Of a DNA stretch of 64,000 bases, positions 671 through 24,215 are shown one piece after another. The stretch lies in assembly GCA_944325865.1 (NCBI GenBank), contig CALVBS010000001.1, forward strand, positions 186,001-250,000, in the 5' to 3' direction. A program made the position numbers and the translations under genes. The DNA comes from Candidatus Gastranaerophilales bacterium. GTDB taxonomy: Bacteria > Cyanobacteriota > Vampirovibrionia > Gastranaerophilales > Gastranaerophilaceae. The notes below the pieces were generated by a model. That model saw nothing but the letters and a program-made list of their open reading frames with translations, searched no databases and had not been told where the DNA came from. Each line of letters begins with the position of its first letter. The stretch's first letter is position 1.

Positions 671-1864
671 ATGAATGAAAAATCTTTTAAATATGCATGC
701 CTTTTCGGAGGCGGAGCAATAAGAGGGGTTGCCTATTGCGGTACAATAAAAGCACTTGAAGAGCTTGGCGTTGATGCTGATATAATTGCAGGTTCTTCTG
801 TAGGTTCAATTATAGCCGGACTTCTTGCCGTAGGATATACTGCACAAGAATTGAAGGAAATCTTTTTACAGGTAAATTTTGAACTGTTTAGAGATTTACA
901 GTTCGCTCTCGGGCCACAGTTTGCACTCAGTAAAGGTGAAGTTTTTCTTGATTGGGTAAGGGAGTTAATAGAGCAAAAGTTCTACGGTGAAAAATATAAA
1001 AAAGGTACCCATAAAGCAGTTACGTTCTCTGATTTAGACAAAAATCTTGTAATTATAACAACAGATTTATCAAGTTTTGAGTGCAAAGAATTTTCAAAAC
1101 AAGAAACTCCTGATTTTGAAATAGCAACAGCAATAAGAATTTCCTGCAGCATGCCGGGCTTAATGAAACCTATTGAATATAATAACAGGGTTCTTGTTGA
1201 CGGAGATTTACAAAAAGGCTCTCCAATGTGGCGTTTATCAAAGAATCTTCAACCGAAAAATGAAAGAATACTTGAGTTCAGATTAGAAGGTGACTTTGAA
1301 GGTAATGATAAAAACACCATTGAATATATAAATTCTTTATATACATATGCTACAGCCATAGCTACGGAATTTATAATGGAAGTGTATAACAAAAACGACA
1401 AGTATGATTATATCGTTATCAATACTGGAGACGTAAATATTGTTGATTTTAACCTGCCGACCGATAAAAGGGAAAATCTTATGCAAATCGGCTATAGTCA
1501 GACAATGAACTATTTTAAAGATGTATTACCTTTGAAAAAAGAAAACTTGCTAAAGATTTATACAGAAATAGAAACTCATTTGAAAAAGGTTAAATCAAAC
1601 ATTGAATCCAATAATATTAAAAAGGCAAAAGAAACTCTTACAGAGTTATTTATGTATCTTTGCGACTATGTAAACGTTATTGATATAAAAGATTTTAATG
1701 AATTAAAAGAGTTTAAAGACATACTTTTCAGCAATATAGTTTATCCTGCATTGTTCGGAAAAACTGGTATTAAAAATGAAAAGTTGGTTTTATGCAAACT
1801 TGAACAGGTAACAAATAACATCGCTGATAAAACATCCGAATATAAACAATTTTTAAAATTATGA
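671..1864 (+). CDS. patatin-like phospholipase
   Basis: The protein has 397 residues and the patatin fold signature. A glycine-rich oxyanion loop (GGGAIRG, about residues 13-19) is followed by the nucleophile motif GSSVG with the catalytic serine near residue 43. The catalytic aspartate lies in VLVDGD near residue 177. Patatin-like enzymes hydrolyse acyl esters of membrane lipids. No signal peptide is visible, so the protein is probably cytoplasmic or delivered by another route. The last 170 residues are charged, helical and not assigned. There is no clear ribosome binding site before the ATG. The gene converges with the following minus-strand gene, with a 6-base tail overlap. Confidence 0.85.
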   Translation: MNEKSFKYACLFGGGAIRGVAYCGTIKALEELGVDADIIAGSSVGSIIAGLLAVGYTAQELKEIFLQVNFELFRDLQFALGPQFALSKGEVFLDWVRELIEQKFYGEKYKKGTHKAVTFSDLDKNLVIITTDLSSFECKEFSKQETPDFEIATAIRISCSMPGLMKPIEYNNRVLVDGDLQKGSPMWRLSKNLQPKNERILEFRLEGDFEGNDKNTIEYINSLYTYATAIATEFIMEVYNKNDKYDYIVINTGDVNIVDFNLPTDKRENLMQIGYSQTMNYFKDVLPLKKENLLKIYTEIETHLKKVKSNIESNNIKKAKETLTELFMYLCDYVNVIDIKDFNELKEFKDILFSNIVYPALFGKTGIKNEKLVLCKLEQVTNNIADKTSEYKQFLKL

Positions 1865-3487
1865 GAATGTTTTAAATGTACGTTCAACGTTTTTATTTAT
1901 AACATTCTGAATTGACTCATATTCGGTTTGCAAAGCATTGTGTTCCGTATCAAGAAGTTTTAAATCATTGTCATACTGCTTGTCCTTAGCTTCAATTTCC
2001 TGTTGAACTCTCTGATATTTAACTTCAGCCTTAGTTTGCTCAATATCATTACTTTCTTCACTTACTTCGACCACAGACGAATAAACAATCGAAGTCCATG
2101 ATACATCTTTCAAACCACTGCCGCTTTCGCTAATTTCAGTATATTGAGCCTGTTCCATAGTTATAACACCATTTTTCAGAGCAAATTCCAGCCATTCCGA
2201 ATCATTCATTAAACCATCTTCAAGAATAGCATAAGATTGTCCGGTTTTTGAATCAGTAATCCAGCCGTCTTCTGATTCTACATAATCTTCATCCTGCATA
2301 TATCCGGCTTTGTAATCACTTTCACCGTTCATTCTGTGCCATAAGTTTATGTACCATTGGCCTTTATCCGCATCAAGCAATGTACGAACTTTCTTTTCTA
2401 TAAACATTGGAACATCAAATTCCGGCGGTTCTTCTTCTTCCCACTGTTGGTGAGCTTTTTCAAAAGCATCATAATCAACGGTTGTAACTTCTTCTTTAAC
2501 TGCCTGCTTTAAATCATGTTCAACAAAGTAGAAGAATTTTTCAAGACTGTCCGGCTCTGCTTTGCCGCCGGTTGAAGAACCAATCATATACTCGTCATGA
2601 ACTTCCCACAACAAGTCAACACATCTCTGCCACAAAGTCATATTAGGATCAGATGCAGGACCTCCGACAGTAACAGTACCATAGTCAGTTGTAACGGTCT
2701 GAGAACCGCCTTCAATCACATCACCTGAACAATACCCATTTTTTAGCATTTCCGTAATAGGTGCAAATTTTATTGTACCATGTTTTGCAGTATTCCAACA
2801 CCAGCTGGTATTATGCTCTTCACAGCTTCCGTCATAAATTACATAAGTATGTCCGTCACTTGTAGTGACTTCCCCAGGTCCGATTAAATCAGACAAAACA
2901 TGCATATAACAACCGCTGCCATTAATAGCTCCGCCTAAACACCCTCCGGATGAAGTAACAGCTTCATAAATTTCATTATTTGTAGAAGGAACAAGTTCTG
3001 TCGTTGTGTAATCTTCAATTTTAGGTTCCTTAGCTTCCCACTCTTTATACCCTTTTATGTAATCCGCATAAGCATCATCATATTCAGGATTTTTTACCTC
3101 TACAATCTCAGCTTGATCCATTGGAGCAAGTAAGCCATACTTGTCCAGAAATTCTTCAAGAGTGTCGCTTTCTTCAAAATTTTGTCCGTCAGTTTCTGAA
3201 ACAAGAAGCTGACCGGCAGCATTAACCAGTCCGTATTGATTTTTAATAGGGCTGTATGTATATAAAGCAGCTCCGGTCAATTTTGTAGTAATAGCATTAC
3301 CGTATTCATCATAGGAAGTATATGAAAAATTAGTATCGTTTAATGCTTTTATATATTCATCACTTGCATACTGAATACTGTCTGCAAGTCTAATTTTTGC
3401 ATTGGAAATTTTCTGCGCCCTTAACTCGTTATTGTTAAGGCGTGCAGTTAAGGTTAATAATCTCGCCTGTGAAGCTGATAATCCCAT
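1859..3487 (-). CDS. lineage-specific protein with coiled-coil ends, filament-like
   Basis: I do not recognise a named family in this 542-residue protein. The N-terminus (MGLSASQARLLTLTARLNNN) is amphipathic without a Sec signal, and the last 60 residues are heptad-like and end RTFKTFS. The middle is acidic and rich in Tyr and Gly, with several cysteines around residues 180-260. Helical termini around a variable middle recall flagellin, hook-associated or needle proteins, but no flagellar gene is nearby and this is only an architectural analogy. It is divergent from nadD across 131 bases. Confidence 0.65.
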   Translation of the reverse strand: MGLSASQARLLTLTARLNNNELRAQKISNAKIRLADSIQYASDEYIKALNDTNFSYTSYDEYGNAITTKLTGAALYTYSPIKNQYGLVNAAGQLLVSETDGQNFEESDTLEEFLDKYGLLAPMDQAEIVEVKNPEYDDAYADYIKGYKEWEAKEPKIEDYTTTELVPSTNNEIYEAVTSSGGCLGGAINGSGCYMHVLSDLIGPGEVTTSDGHTYVIYDGSCEEHNTSWCWNTAKHGTIKFAPITEMLKNGYCSGDVIEGGSQTVTTDYGTVTVGGPASDPNMTLWQRCVDLLWEVHDEYMIGSSTGGKAEPDSLEKFFYFVEHDLKQAVKEEVTTVDYDAFEKAHQQWEEEEPPEFDVPMFIEKKVRTLLDADKGQWYINLWHRMNGESDYKAGYMQDEDYVESEDGWITDSKTGQSYAILEDGLMNDSEWLEFALKNGVITMEQAQYTEISESGSGLKDVSWTSIVYSSVVEVSEESNDIEQTKAEVKYQRVQQEIEAKDKQYDNDLKLLDTEHNALQTEYESIQNVINKNVERTFKTFS

Positions 3488-3618: not shown

Positions 3619-4209
3619 ATGAAGTTATGTGTTTTTCAAGGAACATTCAATCCCATACACAACGCACACATAAGAGTTGCGAAATTTGCTTATAATCATA
3701 AGGACTTTGATAAAATACTTTTCATACCTGCGGCAAAGCCGCCGCATAAAGCATACAATCCAAATCTATCCTTACACAGATATAATATGGTAAAACTTGC
3801 TATTGAAAAGTATAACGAATTTGACATATCAGATATCGAATTTAAACTTCAAGGCAAATCATATACTTACAATACAATCTGTGAACTCTATAAGCTATAT
3901 CCTATAGAAGAGAAAATTAATTTTCTGATAGGAACTGATGCTTTTAGAGAAATAGAATTCTGGTACAGGACAGATGATTTAAAAAAACTTGTTAAATTTA
4001 TAATTTTTATAAGAGATAGTGAATTTTCAGAAAAAGAATTTAGTGAATTAAAAGAAAAAGGTTATAATTTCGAATTTATGCCGCTGGAATTTGCGGACAT
4101 ATCTTCAACGGACATAAGGAACAGAATTAAAGAAAACAAACCTGTAACAGGTCTGATAGATAGCAAAGTAGAGGAATATATAAAAGAAAATGGTTTATAC
4201 AAAGATTAA
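3619..4209 (+). CDS. nadD: nicotinate-nucleotide adenylyltransferase
   Basis: This enzyme adenylates nicotinate mononucleotide to deamido-NAD in NAD synthesis. The N-terminal nucleotidyltransferase motif is GTFNPIHNAH (residues 8-17, HxxH type). The C-terminal ISSTDIRNR matches the ISSTxIR motif of the family. The length of 196 residues is normal. The 3' end overlaps yqeK by 20 bases, a pairing that is common in bacteria and suggests translational coupling. Confidence 0.95.
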   Translation: MKLCVFQGTFNPIHNAHIRVAKFAYNHKDFDKILFIPAAKPPHKAYNPNLSLHRYNMVKLAIEKYNEFDISDIEFKLQGKSYTYNTICELYKLYPIEEKINFLIGTDAFREIEFWYRTDDLKKLVKFIIFIRDSEFSEKEFSELKEKGYNFEFMPLEFADISSTDIRNRIKENKPVTGLIDSKVEEYIKENGLYKD

Positions 4210-4789
4210 TGAAAAAGAAATTACAAAATGGCTAAAAGAAAATCTTAATGAAGAACGCTATATGCATTCTCTTGGCACAGCACAATGTGCAAAAGAACTT
4301 GCTGAAAAGTTCAAATTAAATACTGAAAAAGCTTATATAGCAGGACTTTTACATGATTGTGCAAAATGTTTTCCTAAAGAAAAACTTCTTGATATAATAC
4401 ATCAACATATTGATGTTGAAGAAAGCGAAATGCTTAATTATAAAACCTTACATGCACCTGTAAGTGCTTATTATGCTGAACATCAATTCGGAGTAACCGA
4501 TATGGAAATTCTTTCAGCAATAAGATGGCATACTCTGGGAAAACTTGAAATGTCTGATTTTGAAAAAATAATATTTCTTGCAGACAAAATAGAACCAAAT
4601 ACAAGAGATAGGGAATATTCCGCAATTATAAGGAGTTATCTTGATGAAGAAAACGGATTGAACAAAGCTCTTTTAAAGTGTTACAAAGAAACCATAAAGA
4701 GCCTTGTTAAGCGAGATTTAAAGATTTGTCTTCTTACAATAGAGATTTATAACAAGCTGGAAGATTCTGTAAATGTTTCAGATATTTAA
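4190..4789 (+). CDS. yqeK: HD-domain Ap4A hydrolase of the YqeK family
   Basis: This is an HD-superfamily metal hydrolase. The first His lies in MHSLGTA, the HD pair in AGLLHDCAK, a further His in the TLHAPVSAYYA segment, another in AIRWHTLG, and an Asp in FLADKIEP. This order matches YqeK, which hydrolyses diadenosine tetraphosphate symmetrically to ADP. The length (199 residues) and the position overlapping the end of nadD support the call. The frame is intact and there is nothing unusual in it. Confidence 0.9.
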   Translation: MVYTKINEKEITKWLKENLNEERYMHSLGTAQCAKELAEKFKLNTEKAYIAGLLHDCAKCFPKEKLLDIIHQHIDVEESEMLNYKTLHAPVSAYYAEHQFGVTDMEILSAIRWHTLGKLEMSDFEKIIFLADKIEPNTRDREYSAIIRSYLDEENGLNKALLKCYKETIKSLVKRDLKICLLTIEIYNKLEDSVNVSDI

Positions 4790-4793
4790 TGAT

Positions 4794-4823
4794 TTGACAT
4801 GATTTTGGCATGTTCATGATAAA
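4794..4823 (+). promoter_or_regulatory. sigma-70-type promoter of the 4852 gene
   Basis: TTGACA at 4794-4799 is followed after 18 bases by GATAAA at 4818-4823. Transcription would begin near 4830. This places the ATG at 4810 inside the promoter and supports the later start at 4852, which has AGAGGAAG six bases upstream. Confidence 0.6.
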
Positions 4824-4851: not shown

Positions 4852-7179
4852 ATGAAAGTTCTTGAAGTAAAAAATAATCTTGTAAAAATAGAATATAATC
4901 AGGAGGATAACCTTTTACTGGCAGGATTTGTGGTTATAGAAGACTCTCAATCACCATATGTGGCCCAGATTTTGAGTTTAAAAGCTGATAACGGAAACAA
5001 TTATGCTATTGTAAAACTTCTGTTTACATTTAATGATGAAGGAATACTTAAAAATTATAACGGTTCAATACCTTCTCTGGATGCAGATGTTACGAGATTG
5101 GATGCAAGAGACCTTCTGGATATACTTCCGGTTAATACACCTGTAGAAATCGGGAATATTGCACATCAGGGAATAGCTTTAAACGTTGATATGTCAATGT
5201 TTGAAAAGAATCTTCTTATATGTTCCGACAGTTATGAAAATTCCAATATTCTTCTTGAAAATTTTATTTATCAGTTGACAGAACAGAATAAAAAAACAAT
5301 AGTTATTGATAACGACGGCACCATTGGCGGTCAAAAACTTATTTTCGGAACAGATTTTAAACTACCTCTTAATTATGAAACAATAAATTATATTTATGAA
5401 CATGAGCTGGGTAATATTGATCCCGCAAGTAAAGCCGTAATTCAAGATATATTTCTTGAAGTTCAGGAATATTCAAAAACAGTTCTTGATAAATTTATTC
5501 CGTTTGATAACTTTCTGGCTGTTGTTGATGAACAATACAGAGCAACAGGAATTCCGGAACTTGTCCTCTTGAAAAATAAGCTTTTAAGATACAAAGAAAT
5601 GAATGTATTTGCACAATCACCAAAAGAAATTCATGGTTTGCAAAGTGCTATTCGTGCAAATATTAGTAATACTATTGATATTTCATCGGCAGAAGATTCG
5701 CTGCAAAATGAAATTATCAAGTATATTTATAACACCATTGATGAAATGGATTTGTTTGTATATGCATTTGTTCAGCTTAACAATGAGAATGCTGATAAGA
5801 AAATTATCAGACATTTTCTCACCAAAAATAAAATATACACATCTGTTGTATGCAGTCATAATTTTAAATATATTTATGAACTAAAAGAACGAGCAAACAA
5901 TCTCATTTTCTTTGCTCCATTAACTATGCAGCATGATTTTGCAGGATATAATACGTTCTTAAACAAACTGAATTCAGATGAATTTATTATTTACGGAAAA
6001 GCTACCCAGCATATTCCTCTAATAGTTGAATTGGTTTCTATGGTTGAAGAAGAAATTCCAGAAGATGATAGTAATAGTCATCAGACAGCAGATGAAGAAC
6101 TTACCGAATCTGTACAAGAAGAAACTCAACAGGATGATTTTTCGGAAGAATCCGACTCATATTCATACGAAACTCTAATTGAAGATACTGCAGTACAACC
6201 TGAACCTGAGACTGAAAAAGCTGAAAACGCAGAGGAAGAAACTGCCGACAAGCAGCAGGAAAACATTTCTGAGACTCAACAAACTGAACAGACAGTAACT
6301 GAGCCGCATGCAGAATCAGAAGAGGATACAGAGGAAACTGAATCGGAAGAAGAAAATGAAGAAGTAGAAGAAGATGACTCTGAAGACTATGACTATGAAG
6401 AAGAGGTTGAAGACGATGAAATAGATGACTCTGAAGAGCCAGAAGAACAACAAAACCTCTCTGACGAATTTGAAGAAGATGATGAAGATGATACCGAAGC
6501 AACCGAATCAGAAGAAGAAACTGAAGATATTGTTGATACGGAAACTATTACCAGTATTATAGATGAAGAAATTCAGGCTGAAGCATTAACTCCGCAAGAG
6601 GATGATATTATAGAAGGTGAATTTACCGAATTGGATGATACTTCAAATCTTGAAAGTTCAATCGAAGAGCCGTCAATGGAACTTGAAGAAAACGATTCAA
6701 ATATGGAACTGCCTTCTTTGGAAGATGTTTCTGATAATATTACTGAGACAGAAGAAACAGAAATGCCTTCAGATGAAATTCCGGAAAACGAACAAAATAT
6801 CGATGATAAGGTATCAAAAGATGTTGACGAATTAATTTATTCTGCTGAAAAGCAAGAAATACCATCGATTGACGATATTGTCGAAAACGAAAACTCCGAA
6901 GACAGTTTAACAGAAGATGATTTAAATTTTATACAGGATGTTAACTCGCCGACAACTGAAGACAGCCTGCCGGTTTATCCTGCAGAAAGTCCAAATGCTG
7001 CAACCCAAGAAGGTCCGGCTTTTGCAGCTGGTGATCATGTATCCCATCCGAAATACGGGGAAGGGGTTGTTGAAAAAATAATCCGTTACGGAAATAAAGC
7101 ACTTTGTTCAATAAGCTTTATTAATGTCGGAAGAAGACTTCTTGATCCTGCAATATCTGAAATAACCAAGCTTGATTAG
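4852..7179 (+). CDS. HerA-like ATPase relic, acidic linker, PcrA-type Tudor tail
   Basis: The protein has 775 residues in three parts. Residues 1-390 look like an N-terminal beta-barrel (MKVLEVKNNLVKIEYN) followed by a HerA/FtsK-like P-loop fold, but where a Walker A loop is expected the sequence reads CSDSYENSNILLEN, without GxxxxGK. Residues 400-700 are almost entirely Glu, Asp, Ser and Thr. The last 55 residues (GDHVSHPKYGEGVVEKI, then ISFINVGRRLLDP) match the Tudor-like tail of UvrD/PcrA helicases, which in PcrA binds RNA polymerase. A role linking transcription and DNA is inference. The start was chosen from its ribosome binding site and the promoter overlapping the earlier ATG. Confidence 0.55.
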   Translation: MKVLEVKNNLVKIEYNQEDNLLLAGFVVIEDSQSPYVAQILSLKADNGNNYAIVKLLFTFNDEGILKNYNGSIPSLDADVTRLDARDLLDILPVNTPVEIGNIAHQGIALNVDMSMFEKNLLICSDSYENSNILLENFIYQLTEQNKKTIVIDNDGTIGGQKLIFGTDFKLPLNYETINYIYEHELGNIDPASKAVIQDIFLEVQEYSKTVLDKFIPFDNFLAVVDEQYRATGIPELVLLKNKLLRYKEMNVFAQSPKEIHGLQSAIRANISNTIDISSAEDSLQNEIIKYIYNTIDEMDLFVYAFVQLNNENADKKIIRHFLTKNKIYTSVVCSHNFKYIYELKERANNLIFFAPLTMQHDFAGYNTFLNKLNSDEFIIYGKATQHIPLIVELVSMVEEEIPEDDSNSHQTADEELTESVQEETQQDDFSEESDSYSYETLIEDTAVQPEPETEKAENAEEETADKQQENISETQQTEQTVTEPHAESEEDTEETESEEENEEVEEDDSEDYDYEEEVEDDEIDDSEEPEEQQNLSDEFEEDDEDDTEATESEEETEDIVDTETITSIIDEEIQAEALTPQEDDIIEGEFTELDDTSNLESSIEEPSMELEENDSNMELPSLEDVSDNITETEETEMPSDEIPENEQNIDDKVSKDVDELIYSAEKQEIPSIDDIVENENSEDSLTEDDLNFIQDVNSPTTEDSLPVYPAESPNAATQEGPAFAAGDHVSHPKYGEGVVEKIIRYGNKALCSISFINVGRRLLDPAISEITKLD

Positions 7180-21438: not shown

Positions 21439-21580
21439 AAAATAATTTTAAAAAGTTAAATTAATGTTATATTTTATATAAATTTATATGTAAACTATTA
21501 TTAATAGTATAACAAATTAATTTTTTACAGATTTTATATATACTGAAAAGATTAAAAATCATGATTTATGGAGTACTTTA

Positions 21581-21946
21581 ATGAAAACTAATAATATTCA
21601 AACGAGCAATTCATTAAGCTTTGGCGCTAAATTACAAATATCAAGAAGAACTTGTGTGAGAGGTAAAAAGTTTATAGACAAAGAACTAACAAACCAATAT
21701 AGCAAAAAAACAGCGGAAATAGGAACTTCTAAAGACATAATCAAATTTGATATTGAACCTTTATACAAAAATGATGACAAACATATTGGAATTCGAGCTC
21801 AATTTATTCATCAAGGTGGAAAAATAAAAAAACAAGCTAATTATGAAAATGGACCAGCATTTAATGCTAAAGAATTAAAAGAATATGTAAACATGATTAT
21901 AAATGGGACATTGGATGAATTTCAAAACCTATTTACAAAAAAATAA
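21581..21946 (+). CDS. array protein Y1, FGAKL motif, paralogue of Y2
   Basis: This 121-residue basic protein starts MKTNNIQTSNSLSFGAKLQI (motif Phe at residue 14), followed by a conserved SRRTCVRGKKFIDKEL and a C-terminal helix NGTLDEFQNLFTKK. It differs from Y2 (23850) at about 14 positions, which is near 88 percent identity by eye. Upstream DNA is also shared with Y2, including GATTAAAAATCATGATTTA before the start. The function is unknown. The high identity indicates a recent duplication. Confidence 0.7.
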   Translation: MKTNNIQTSNSLSFGAKLQISRRTCVRGKKFIDKELTNQYSKKTAEIGTSKDIIKFDIEPLYKNDDKHIGIRAQFIHQGGKIKKQANYENGPAFNAKELKEYVNMIINGTLDEFQNLFTKK

Positions 21947-23738: not shown

Positions 23739-23849
23739 GAAACTTAAATTAATGTTATAAAAATTTAAATTACTGTTATAGCAAATTTATTTTTTACGAA
23801 TTTTATATATACAGAAACGATTAAAAATCATGATTTATGGAGGATTTTA

Positions 23850-24215
23850 ATGAAAACCAATAATATTAAAGCGAGCAATTCATTAAGATTTGGTGCTAAA
23901 TTACAAATATCAAGAAGAACTTGTGTTAGAGGTAAAAAGTTTATAGACAAAGAACTAACAAAACAATATTTCAAAAAAGCTGAGGAAATAGGAACTTCTA
24001 AAGACTTAATAAAATTTGATATTGGACCTTTATACAAAAATGATGACAAACATATTGGAATTCGAGCTCAATTTATTCGTCAAGGTGGAAAAATAAAAAA
24101 ACAAGCTAATTATGAAAATGGACCAGCATTTAATACTAAAGAATTAAAAGAATATATAAACATAATTATAAATGGGACATTGGACGAATTTCAAAAACTA
24201 TTTACAAAAAAATAA
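23850..24215 (+). CDS. array protein Y2, FGAKL motif, paralogue of Y1
   Basis: This 121-residue protein is nearly identical to Y1, with about 14 substitutions spread along its length and none disrupting the frame. GGAGG lies eight bases before the ATG. The motif is LRFGAKLQI (Phe at residue 14). Retention of an intact frame in both copies suggests both are functional. It lies between type A copy 3 and type B copy 2, which present inverted core sequences. Confidence 0.7.
   Translation: MKTNNIKASNSLRFGAKLQISRRTCVRGKKFIDKELTKQYFKKAEEIGTSKDLIKFDIGPLYKNDDKHIGIRAQFIRQGGKIKKQANYENGPAFNTKELKEYINIIINGTLDEFQKLFTKK

Follow-up and report, generated by a model that had tools for sequence, protein, structure and literature searches.

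A HerA-fold protein without Walker A motif and with a PcrA-type Tudor tail in Gastranaerophilales

A three-part gene downstream of nadD and yqeK

The window, by which we mean the whole stretch of 64,000 nucleotides analysed here (Candidatus Gastranaerophilales bacterium, contig CALVBS010000001.1, positions 186,001 to 250,000), belongs to a genome of 2.03 Mb and carries a gene for a protein of 775 residues, referred to below as the HerA-Tudor protein. Its open reading frame opens at 4810, the ATG at 4852 (MKVLEVKNN...) is the start common to relatives, and the stop is at 7179. Two genes lie upstream of it, which we take to be nadD and yqeK. The features of the locus are as follows.

3619..4209 (+): nadD-like nucleotidyltransferase, upstream neighbour (Pfam CTP_transf_like)
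4190..4789 (+): YqeK-like HD protein, upstream neighbour, overlapping nadD (Pfam HD)
4852..7179 (+): gene of the three-part protein, 775 residues (frame, start common to relatives, family members)
4852..6051 (+): HerA-fold domain, residues 1-400, with N-terminal beta-barrel, RecA-like core and helical insert (AlphaFold, Foldseek, VIA-align, profile)
5212..5256 (+): position of the lost Walker A loop, residues 121-135, LLICSDSYENSNILL (alignment to ATGSGKS of HerA)
6052..7005 (+): acidic linker of low conservation, residues 401-718 (composition, dN/dS)
7006..7176 (+): Tudor tail of PcrA/UvrD type, residues 719-775 (57 residues), with contact positions H732, Y735, R762 and L764 (profile, model, fold matches)

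The three-part architecture is nearly certain. Since the gene is present in 56 of 59 sampled genomes, counting the window's own, and its three parts recur, it is not the product of chance. Relatives were sought in genome contigs, in a search that may omit records very close to the window's own genome; among those with a name, the best match over the N-domain (90%) is Candidatus Scatousia excrementipullorum. Gene order was compared over the 80 best-scoring of the 177 loci found, which are thus not a random sample and many of which are titled Candidatus Gastranaerophilales. In 79 of these 80 loci nadD and yqeK precede the HerA-Tudor gene in the same orientation (counting L109, although it is beyond the distance limit; the exception, L073, begins at a contig edge). 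Downstream genes vary, the first being a chorismate mutase gene on the opposite strand in 48 of the 80 loci. It is nadD and yqeK, and not repair genes, that the HerA-Tudor gene adjoins.

Two other features of the window may be recorded here. A protein of 542 residues without a Pfam hit is encoded at 1862-3487 (-), and its relatives adjoin the HerA-Tudor gene in some of the 80 loci. Further along, the frames at 21521-21943 and 23769-24212 (both +) have a near-identical N-terminal sequence (KTNNI..SNSL.FGAKLQISRRTCVRGKKFID), and appear from this likeness to be a local duplication.

The N-domain has a HerA fold and has lost the Walker A motif

The first-pass annotation of this gene, made from the sequence, had proposed that its N-terminal part is HerA-like. 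Structure prediction gives a full HerA fold and not an unrelated one. The AlphaFold model of the N-domain has a pLDDT of 88.7 and a pTM of 0.84, and 44 of its top 50 Foldseek matches among solved structures are titled HerA, the other six being titled "bacterial protein" or "anti-phage defense complex". In VIA-align the best solved match is chain B of HerA 4d2i (Z 26.8, rmsd 3.8, 379 residues aligned); VirB4, TrwB, B204 and FtsK score lower than HerA. A profile of the N-domain built from 30 aligned members, window included, has Sulfolobus HerA (4d2i) as its top PDB hit (E 3.7e-4), with an alignment that runs through the P-loop. The second profile hit, a CFA/I fimbrial subunit fusion (4.6e-4), consists of three weak repeated stretches only and was taken as chance. 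As a single sequence, the N-domain of the window has no Pfam hit, and no DUF87 hit at E up to 1. When the 30 members are run singly against Pfam, four give weak DUF87 hits with E no higher than 1 (best 0.0042) and four hit SepF (best 0.0021).

The absence of a Walker A motif, also claimed at first pass, holds for the whole alignment: GK[ST] is missing at the P-loop position in 30 of 30 aligned members, window included. Residue 131, which is aligned to the catalytic lysine, is T in 15 rows, S in six (S131 in the window), N in four and K in two, with other residues in the rest. The glycine that precedes the lysine position has become N, D or E in all 30 rows, and because of this the two rows with K at 131 are still without a Walker A motif. 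In the Walker B region, placed without a residue-level structural alignment, strand 303-308 has no D-E pair, and acidic residues stand at 310-312 in many rows.

The whole fold, N-terminal barrel included, resembles that of the hexameric translocases of the HerA/DUF87 group (4d2i, SIR2-HerA, DUF4297-HerA and HerA-NurA), from which the window protein differs in having no Walker A motif and in its extra acidic linker and Tudor tail. It also differs from SIR2-HerA, DUF4297-HerA and HerA-NurA in that none of the Pfam hits of its ten neighbours is a SIR2, DUF4297 or nuclease (one neighbour is without any hit). In the DndH-type HerA/FtsK capture proteins a HerA fold is likewise joined to other domains; in the excerpts available from that source (PMC10853773), the HerA/FtsK parts belong to counter-invader systems, whereas the 775-residue protein has no match in PADLOC, nor in NCBIfam.

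The linker

Between its two ends the protein was first described as having about 300 acidic residues. The linker is indeed acidic, but the figure fits its length and not its acidic content, as it has 318 residues, of which 131 are D/E and 5 are K/R (41% and 2%, respectively). Among 29 members, the stretch from N-domain to tail ranges from 132 to 376 residues, with 20-45% D/E and 1-10% K/R. An exceptionally long case is found in genome G023 (L028, 1501-5256, +), where the open frame has 1385 codons and at least 775 residues follow the N-domain, the tail lying beyond the fetched locus. A DVDELIYS-like pattern was considered as a conserved linker motif and dropped, as it is present in 5 of 105 frames.

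The tail belongs to the PcrA/UvrD Tudor family

Taken by itself, the sequence from the window reaches 16.6 bits against the Pfam family PcrA_UvrD_tudor, under the cut-off of 23.9, and 13.9 bits against CarD_TRCF_RID (cut-off 23). Among five proteins scored, a member from the order (L030) and a distant protein (L214) pass the PcrA_UvrD_tudor cut-off. A tail profile of 37 rows, when run against PDB sequences, finds solved UvrD C-terminal domains with E-values of 4.6e-8 to 1.6e-7, with weaker matches to 5dma (0.017), CdnL (0.027) and CarD (0.16). The predicted structure of the tail (residues 716-775, pLDDT 88.1) is that of a PcrA/UvrD Tudor, in agreement with the original suggestion that such a tail is here detached from any helicase: the solved UvrD/PcrA tails match it with Z-scores of 9.5 (9dqs), 9.1 (7egs), 9.1 (5dma) and 8.3 (7egt), and next below them are eukaryotic Tudors (up to 7.7), CarD (6.5-7.6) and R67 dihydrofolate reductase (6.8). 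As this margin in fold is modest, it is the sequence profile that carries the assignment to PcrA/UvrD.

The likeness to the C-terminal Tudor domain of PcrA and UvrD thus covers fold, profile and contact surface, and as in PcrA a long flexible linker leads to the domain at the C-terminus. However, it is borne by a HerA fold instead of an SF1 helicase. The Tudor domains of the Mfd RID and of CarD share the fold and also dock on RNA polymerase, but are a weaker match to the window tail.

Contact residues are better kept than in the PcrA of the same order

In PcrA, each of the substitutions H681A, W684A, K712A and L714A severely lowers binding to RNA polymerase, according to the excerpted text of Sanders et al. 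(PMC5397179). The window has H732, Y735, R762 and L764 at these positions, the register of the last two (K712=R762, L714=L764) being set by UvrD alignments and by where the fold alignment to 5dma begins and ends. An aromatic, a basic and an aliphatic residue are kept at 684, 712 and 714 in 92 of 92 distinct family tails, and the position of H681 is H in 67 of them and T in 25. Four loci with no tail inside the fetched stretch (L028, L029, L056 and L160) are excluded from the tail counts.

The PcrA of the host is a separate protein that carries a second Tudor tail of its own; counted from its start, it has 839 residues. For PcrA from the same order we compared 27 distinct tails, taken from the 30 best-scoring loci plus L134, so that distant families of the order are few in this sample. 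The contacts at 684, 712 and 714 are kept in seven of the 27. The aromatic residue is mostly missing at 684 (L in 19, F in five, Y in two and M in one), position 712 is K throughout (27/27), and position 714 is M in 21, V in five and L in one. As H and the basic residue are retained in 27/27, these PcrA tails may bind UvrB too. PcrA from other orders keeps the three contacts in 17 of 18 tails, the remaining one being cut off by the contig; three of these (L185, L189 and L194) were assigned to PcrA by hand, as the helicase motif searched for lies outside the fetched frame, and since L194 shares its genome with the cut-off L201, the two being probably a single gene split over two contigs, the 18 may be 17. 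From these tallies it follows that, of the two PcrA-type surfaces in the genome, the HerA-Tudor protein carries the better kept one.

In a FastTree phylogeny of 119 thinned tails (62 columns), the family tails form one group (support 0.73) and the PcrA tails of the same order form another (0.998); the latter group together with PcrA from other orders and with four PcrA tails of the phylum that come from outside the class (0.939). Because of this separation the family tail looks unlike a recent copy of the PcrA tail of its host, a conclusion that we draw weakly.

Selection and distribution

Rates were estimated by the Nei-Gojobori method among ten members of the genus, which give 45 pairs. The N-domain has dN/dS values of 0.030, 0.059 and 0.030 (three pairs, dS <1.5), and the medians over nine pairs are 0.54 for the linker and 0.10 for the Tudor tail; these values are rough, as dS is near saturation, but the contrast between the parts of the protein is nonetheless large. 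It is well supported that the HerA and Tudor parts are under strong purifying selection in what is now a pseudo-ATPase, and the word "relic", as first applied to the HerA part, is therefore misleading.

The N-domain profile has a match in 190 of 289 genomes of the class, the window's own included. Twenty of the 99 class genomes without a match are listed, three of them from the order (G009, G031 and G143) and 17 from other families of the class, and as the genome list runs by kinship, the remaining 79 are probably from other orders too. Tail matches in the three genomes from the order have best E-values of 1.3e-11 to 1.3e-10, and being far weaker than family tails they are probably PcrA. A search for yqeK, run without a positive control, finds no match in these same three genomes, which would fit an assembly gap. 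One genome that was negative in the sample of 59 (G020) does match the N-domain profile in the search of the class.

The loss of the Walker A motif could be read as a sign of decay, leaving a relic without function, and a few genes in draft genomes are interrupted (in two frames in L057 and L066, as short frames in G276 and G232). Such decay is hardly conceivable in view of an N-domain dN/dS of 0.03-0.06, of the lack of any internal stop in the N-domain matches listed for class genomes, and of the wide distribution just described, with three misses from the order among those listed. Strong selection on both ends of the protein in relatives makes a working adaptor, and not a decaying remnant, probable.

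UvrB as candidate docking partner

The binding site of the PcrA tail has been described for B. subtilis by Urrutia-Irazabal et al. (PMC8318588, in excerpt), where RpoB receives the tail on a TGE hairpin of its SI1 insert. By the same excerpts, the tail binds the same TGE motif in UvrB, the pattern being [VIL]DxxTGE[VIL][VILT], some RpoBs are without a clear docking motif, and for Mfd the site is the beta1 domain and not SI1. A complex of the T. thermophilus UvrD tail with UvrB has been solved (7egt, by its structure title).

In the genome of the host, UvrB has an exact match to the docking motif, IDNVTGEVI, which aligns with the TGE stretch of solved UvrBs. In the RpoB frame of this one genome TGE occurs twice, near residues 597 and 934, but there is no full match to the motif and neither triad is at the insert region; the near miss IDGRTGEQF (about 934) is outside the insert region and fails only at the last two motif positions. 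Against the cyanobacterial structures 8h3v, 8gzg and 8syi, the RpoB of the host gives an alignment of a single block, and against 6wvj, from B. subtilis, one of two blocks (25-289 and 359-536 of the chain), so that the SI1 insert is absent. The motif is also absent from the window's own frames of at least 100 codons. With an RpoB that has neither SI1 nor the motif and a UvrB that has the motif, a link to DNA repair is better supported than one to transcription. The connection between transcription and repair that had been envisaged for this protein therefore stands better on its repair side and is weakened on the other, and the description of the tail as RNA polymerase-binding is unproven and loses weight in this host.

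Docking of the tail on UvrB, as suggested by where the motif is present and absent in a single genome, can thus be put forward tentatively. Our best reading, which we offer with some reserve, is that the protein is a non-catalytic HerA-fold adaptor that docks through its Tudor domain on the TGE beta-hairpin of UvrB. The HerA domain, presumably no longer hydrolysing ATP, would act as a platform for assembly or for the binding of DNA or a partner, and the long acidic tether would hold this platform to the Tudor domain. The latter would dock on UvrB in the way that the PcrA/UvrD tail does in other bacteria, and the platform would thereby be tethered to nucleotide excision repair. The HerA-Tudor protein may then compete with PcrA, whose tail has drifted in the order, or partly stand in for it. 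Against this reading stand the T in place of H681 in 25 of the 92 tails, the PcrA tails of the order that may themselves bind UvrB, the near miss in RpoB, and a gene neighbourhood of nadD and yqeK instead of repair genes.

That the tail instead docks on RNA polymerase as first claimed is possible but less likely here, and docking at another site of the polymerase is possible, with no positive support in this host. In either case the tail would bind as in PcrA, UvrD, CarD or Mfd and bring the HerA platform to transcription complexes. Membership of the tail in the same Tudor family as PcrA/UvrD speaks for this, as does the keeping in kind of the contacts other than H in 92/92 tails; CarD and Mfd Tudors are among the weaker fold matches, and beta1, bound by Mfd (PMC8318588, in excerpt), could still be offered by the host. 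Given the RpoB described above, and the lack of apparent sequence homology between the PcrA and Mfd Tudors stated in excerpts of PMC5397179, we consider it doubtful. DNA is another candidate ligand of the tail, since the tail of E. coli UvrD also binds DNA non-specifically (PMC7585439, in excerpt).

A somewhat less likely idea is that the protein clamps the chromosome or DNA, with a putative HerA ring around it that does not turn over ATP, the linker as DNA mimic or gate of the ring, and the tail as a secondary anchor. The retention of the whole HerA fold with its barrel would suit a ring, as would the fact that no HerA/DUF87 protein in the host genome is over the Pfam cut-off, which leaves no obvious active HerA partner there. 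Linker acidity, kept across the 29 members and thus within the order, could be seen as part of such a clamp, but the linker evolves fast (median dN/dS as above), and its counterpart in four distant proteins with such a tail lacks strong acidity (D/E 12-16%; see below). The neighbourhood suggests yet another role, in which the protein, as a regulator, would sense the nadD-yqeK pathway or serve it, and would use its tail to report to repair or transcription. This pathway touches diadenosine tetraphosphate, besides NAD. However, the constant upstream position of the pair may reflect only fixation or co-transcription, downstream genes vary, and neither nadD nor yqeK is matched in the stretches of 9-12.5 kb examined around the four distant proteins, which makes a metabolic role improbable.

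If the adaptor reading is right, this would be a HerA-fold protein under strong selection without a P-loop, and a case of the docking tail of a repair helicase living on a separate protein beside that helicase. It would offer a direct test of the purpose of the PcrA tail where RNA polymerase has no known docking insert. Among the matches listed from the open PubMed Central set, which are in excerpt and include PMC12839542, no description of a HerA-Tudor protein was found.

Other detached or multiple tails

Second proteins with a C-terminal PcrA-type Tudor domain and no helicase part occur in two families of the class, f9 (G059 and G070) and f14 (G064 and G075), at L213 6274-8352 (-), L214 4804-6636 (+), L215 6063-9677 (-) and L216 243-3422 (-). 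Their linkers have 12-16% D/E and 11-21% Pro, and the PcrA tails of both families keep the aromatic contact residue. The N-parts of these proteins were expected to be HerA domains with an intact P-loop, but have no significant likeness to the HerA-Tudor family (hhalign P 0.028 and 0.12; the best of them, L216, reaches 4.5 bits, where the top score among 800 shuffles is 4.2), and they show none to PDB sequences either.

One could speculate that a dead translocase was turned into a UvrB-docking scaffold early in the non-photosynthetic relatives of cyanobacteria and took over the function of the PcrA tail, although we think this rather unlikely. If true, excision repair in these bacteria would be organised by a pseudo-motor and not by a helicase, and the state of f9 and f14, with a second tail protein beside an intact PcrA tail, would be an intermediate.

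Of the 203 genomes from outside the class in our sample of the phylum, about 185 show just one tail match; two or three are found in nine, and none in nine others. Two of the genomes outside the class (G400 and G392) have a PcrA-type tail on frames without a helicase motif (L257 1498-2385, -, 296 codons, and L261 1-1671, +, 700 codons, respectively), so tails may have become detached on more than one occasion. One family outside the class (G320, G324, G329, G338 and G342) has two or three UvrD-like helicases per genome, each with its own variant Tudor tail (L252-L256, L258-L260, L262, L263 and L267-L269).
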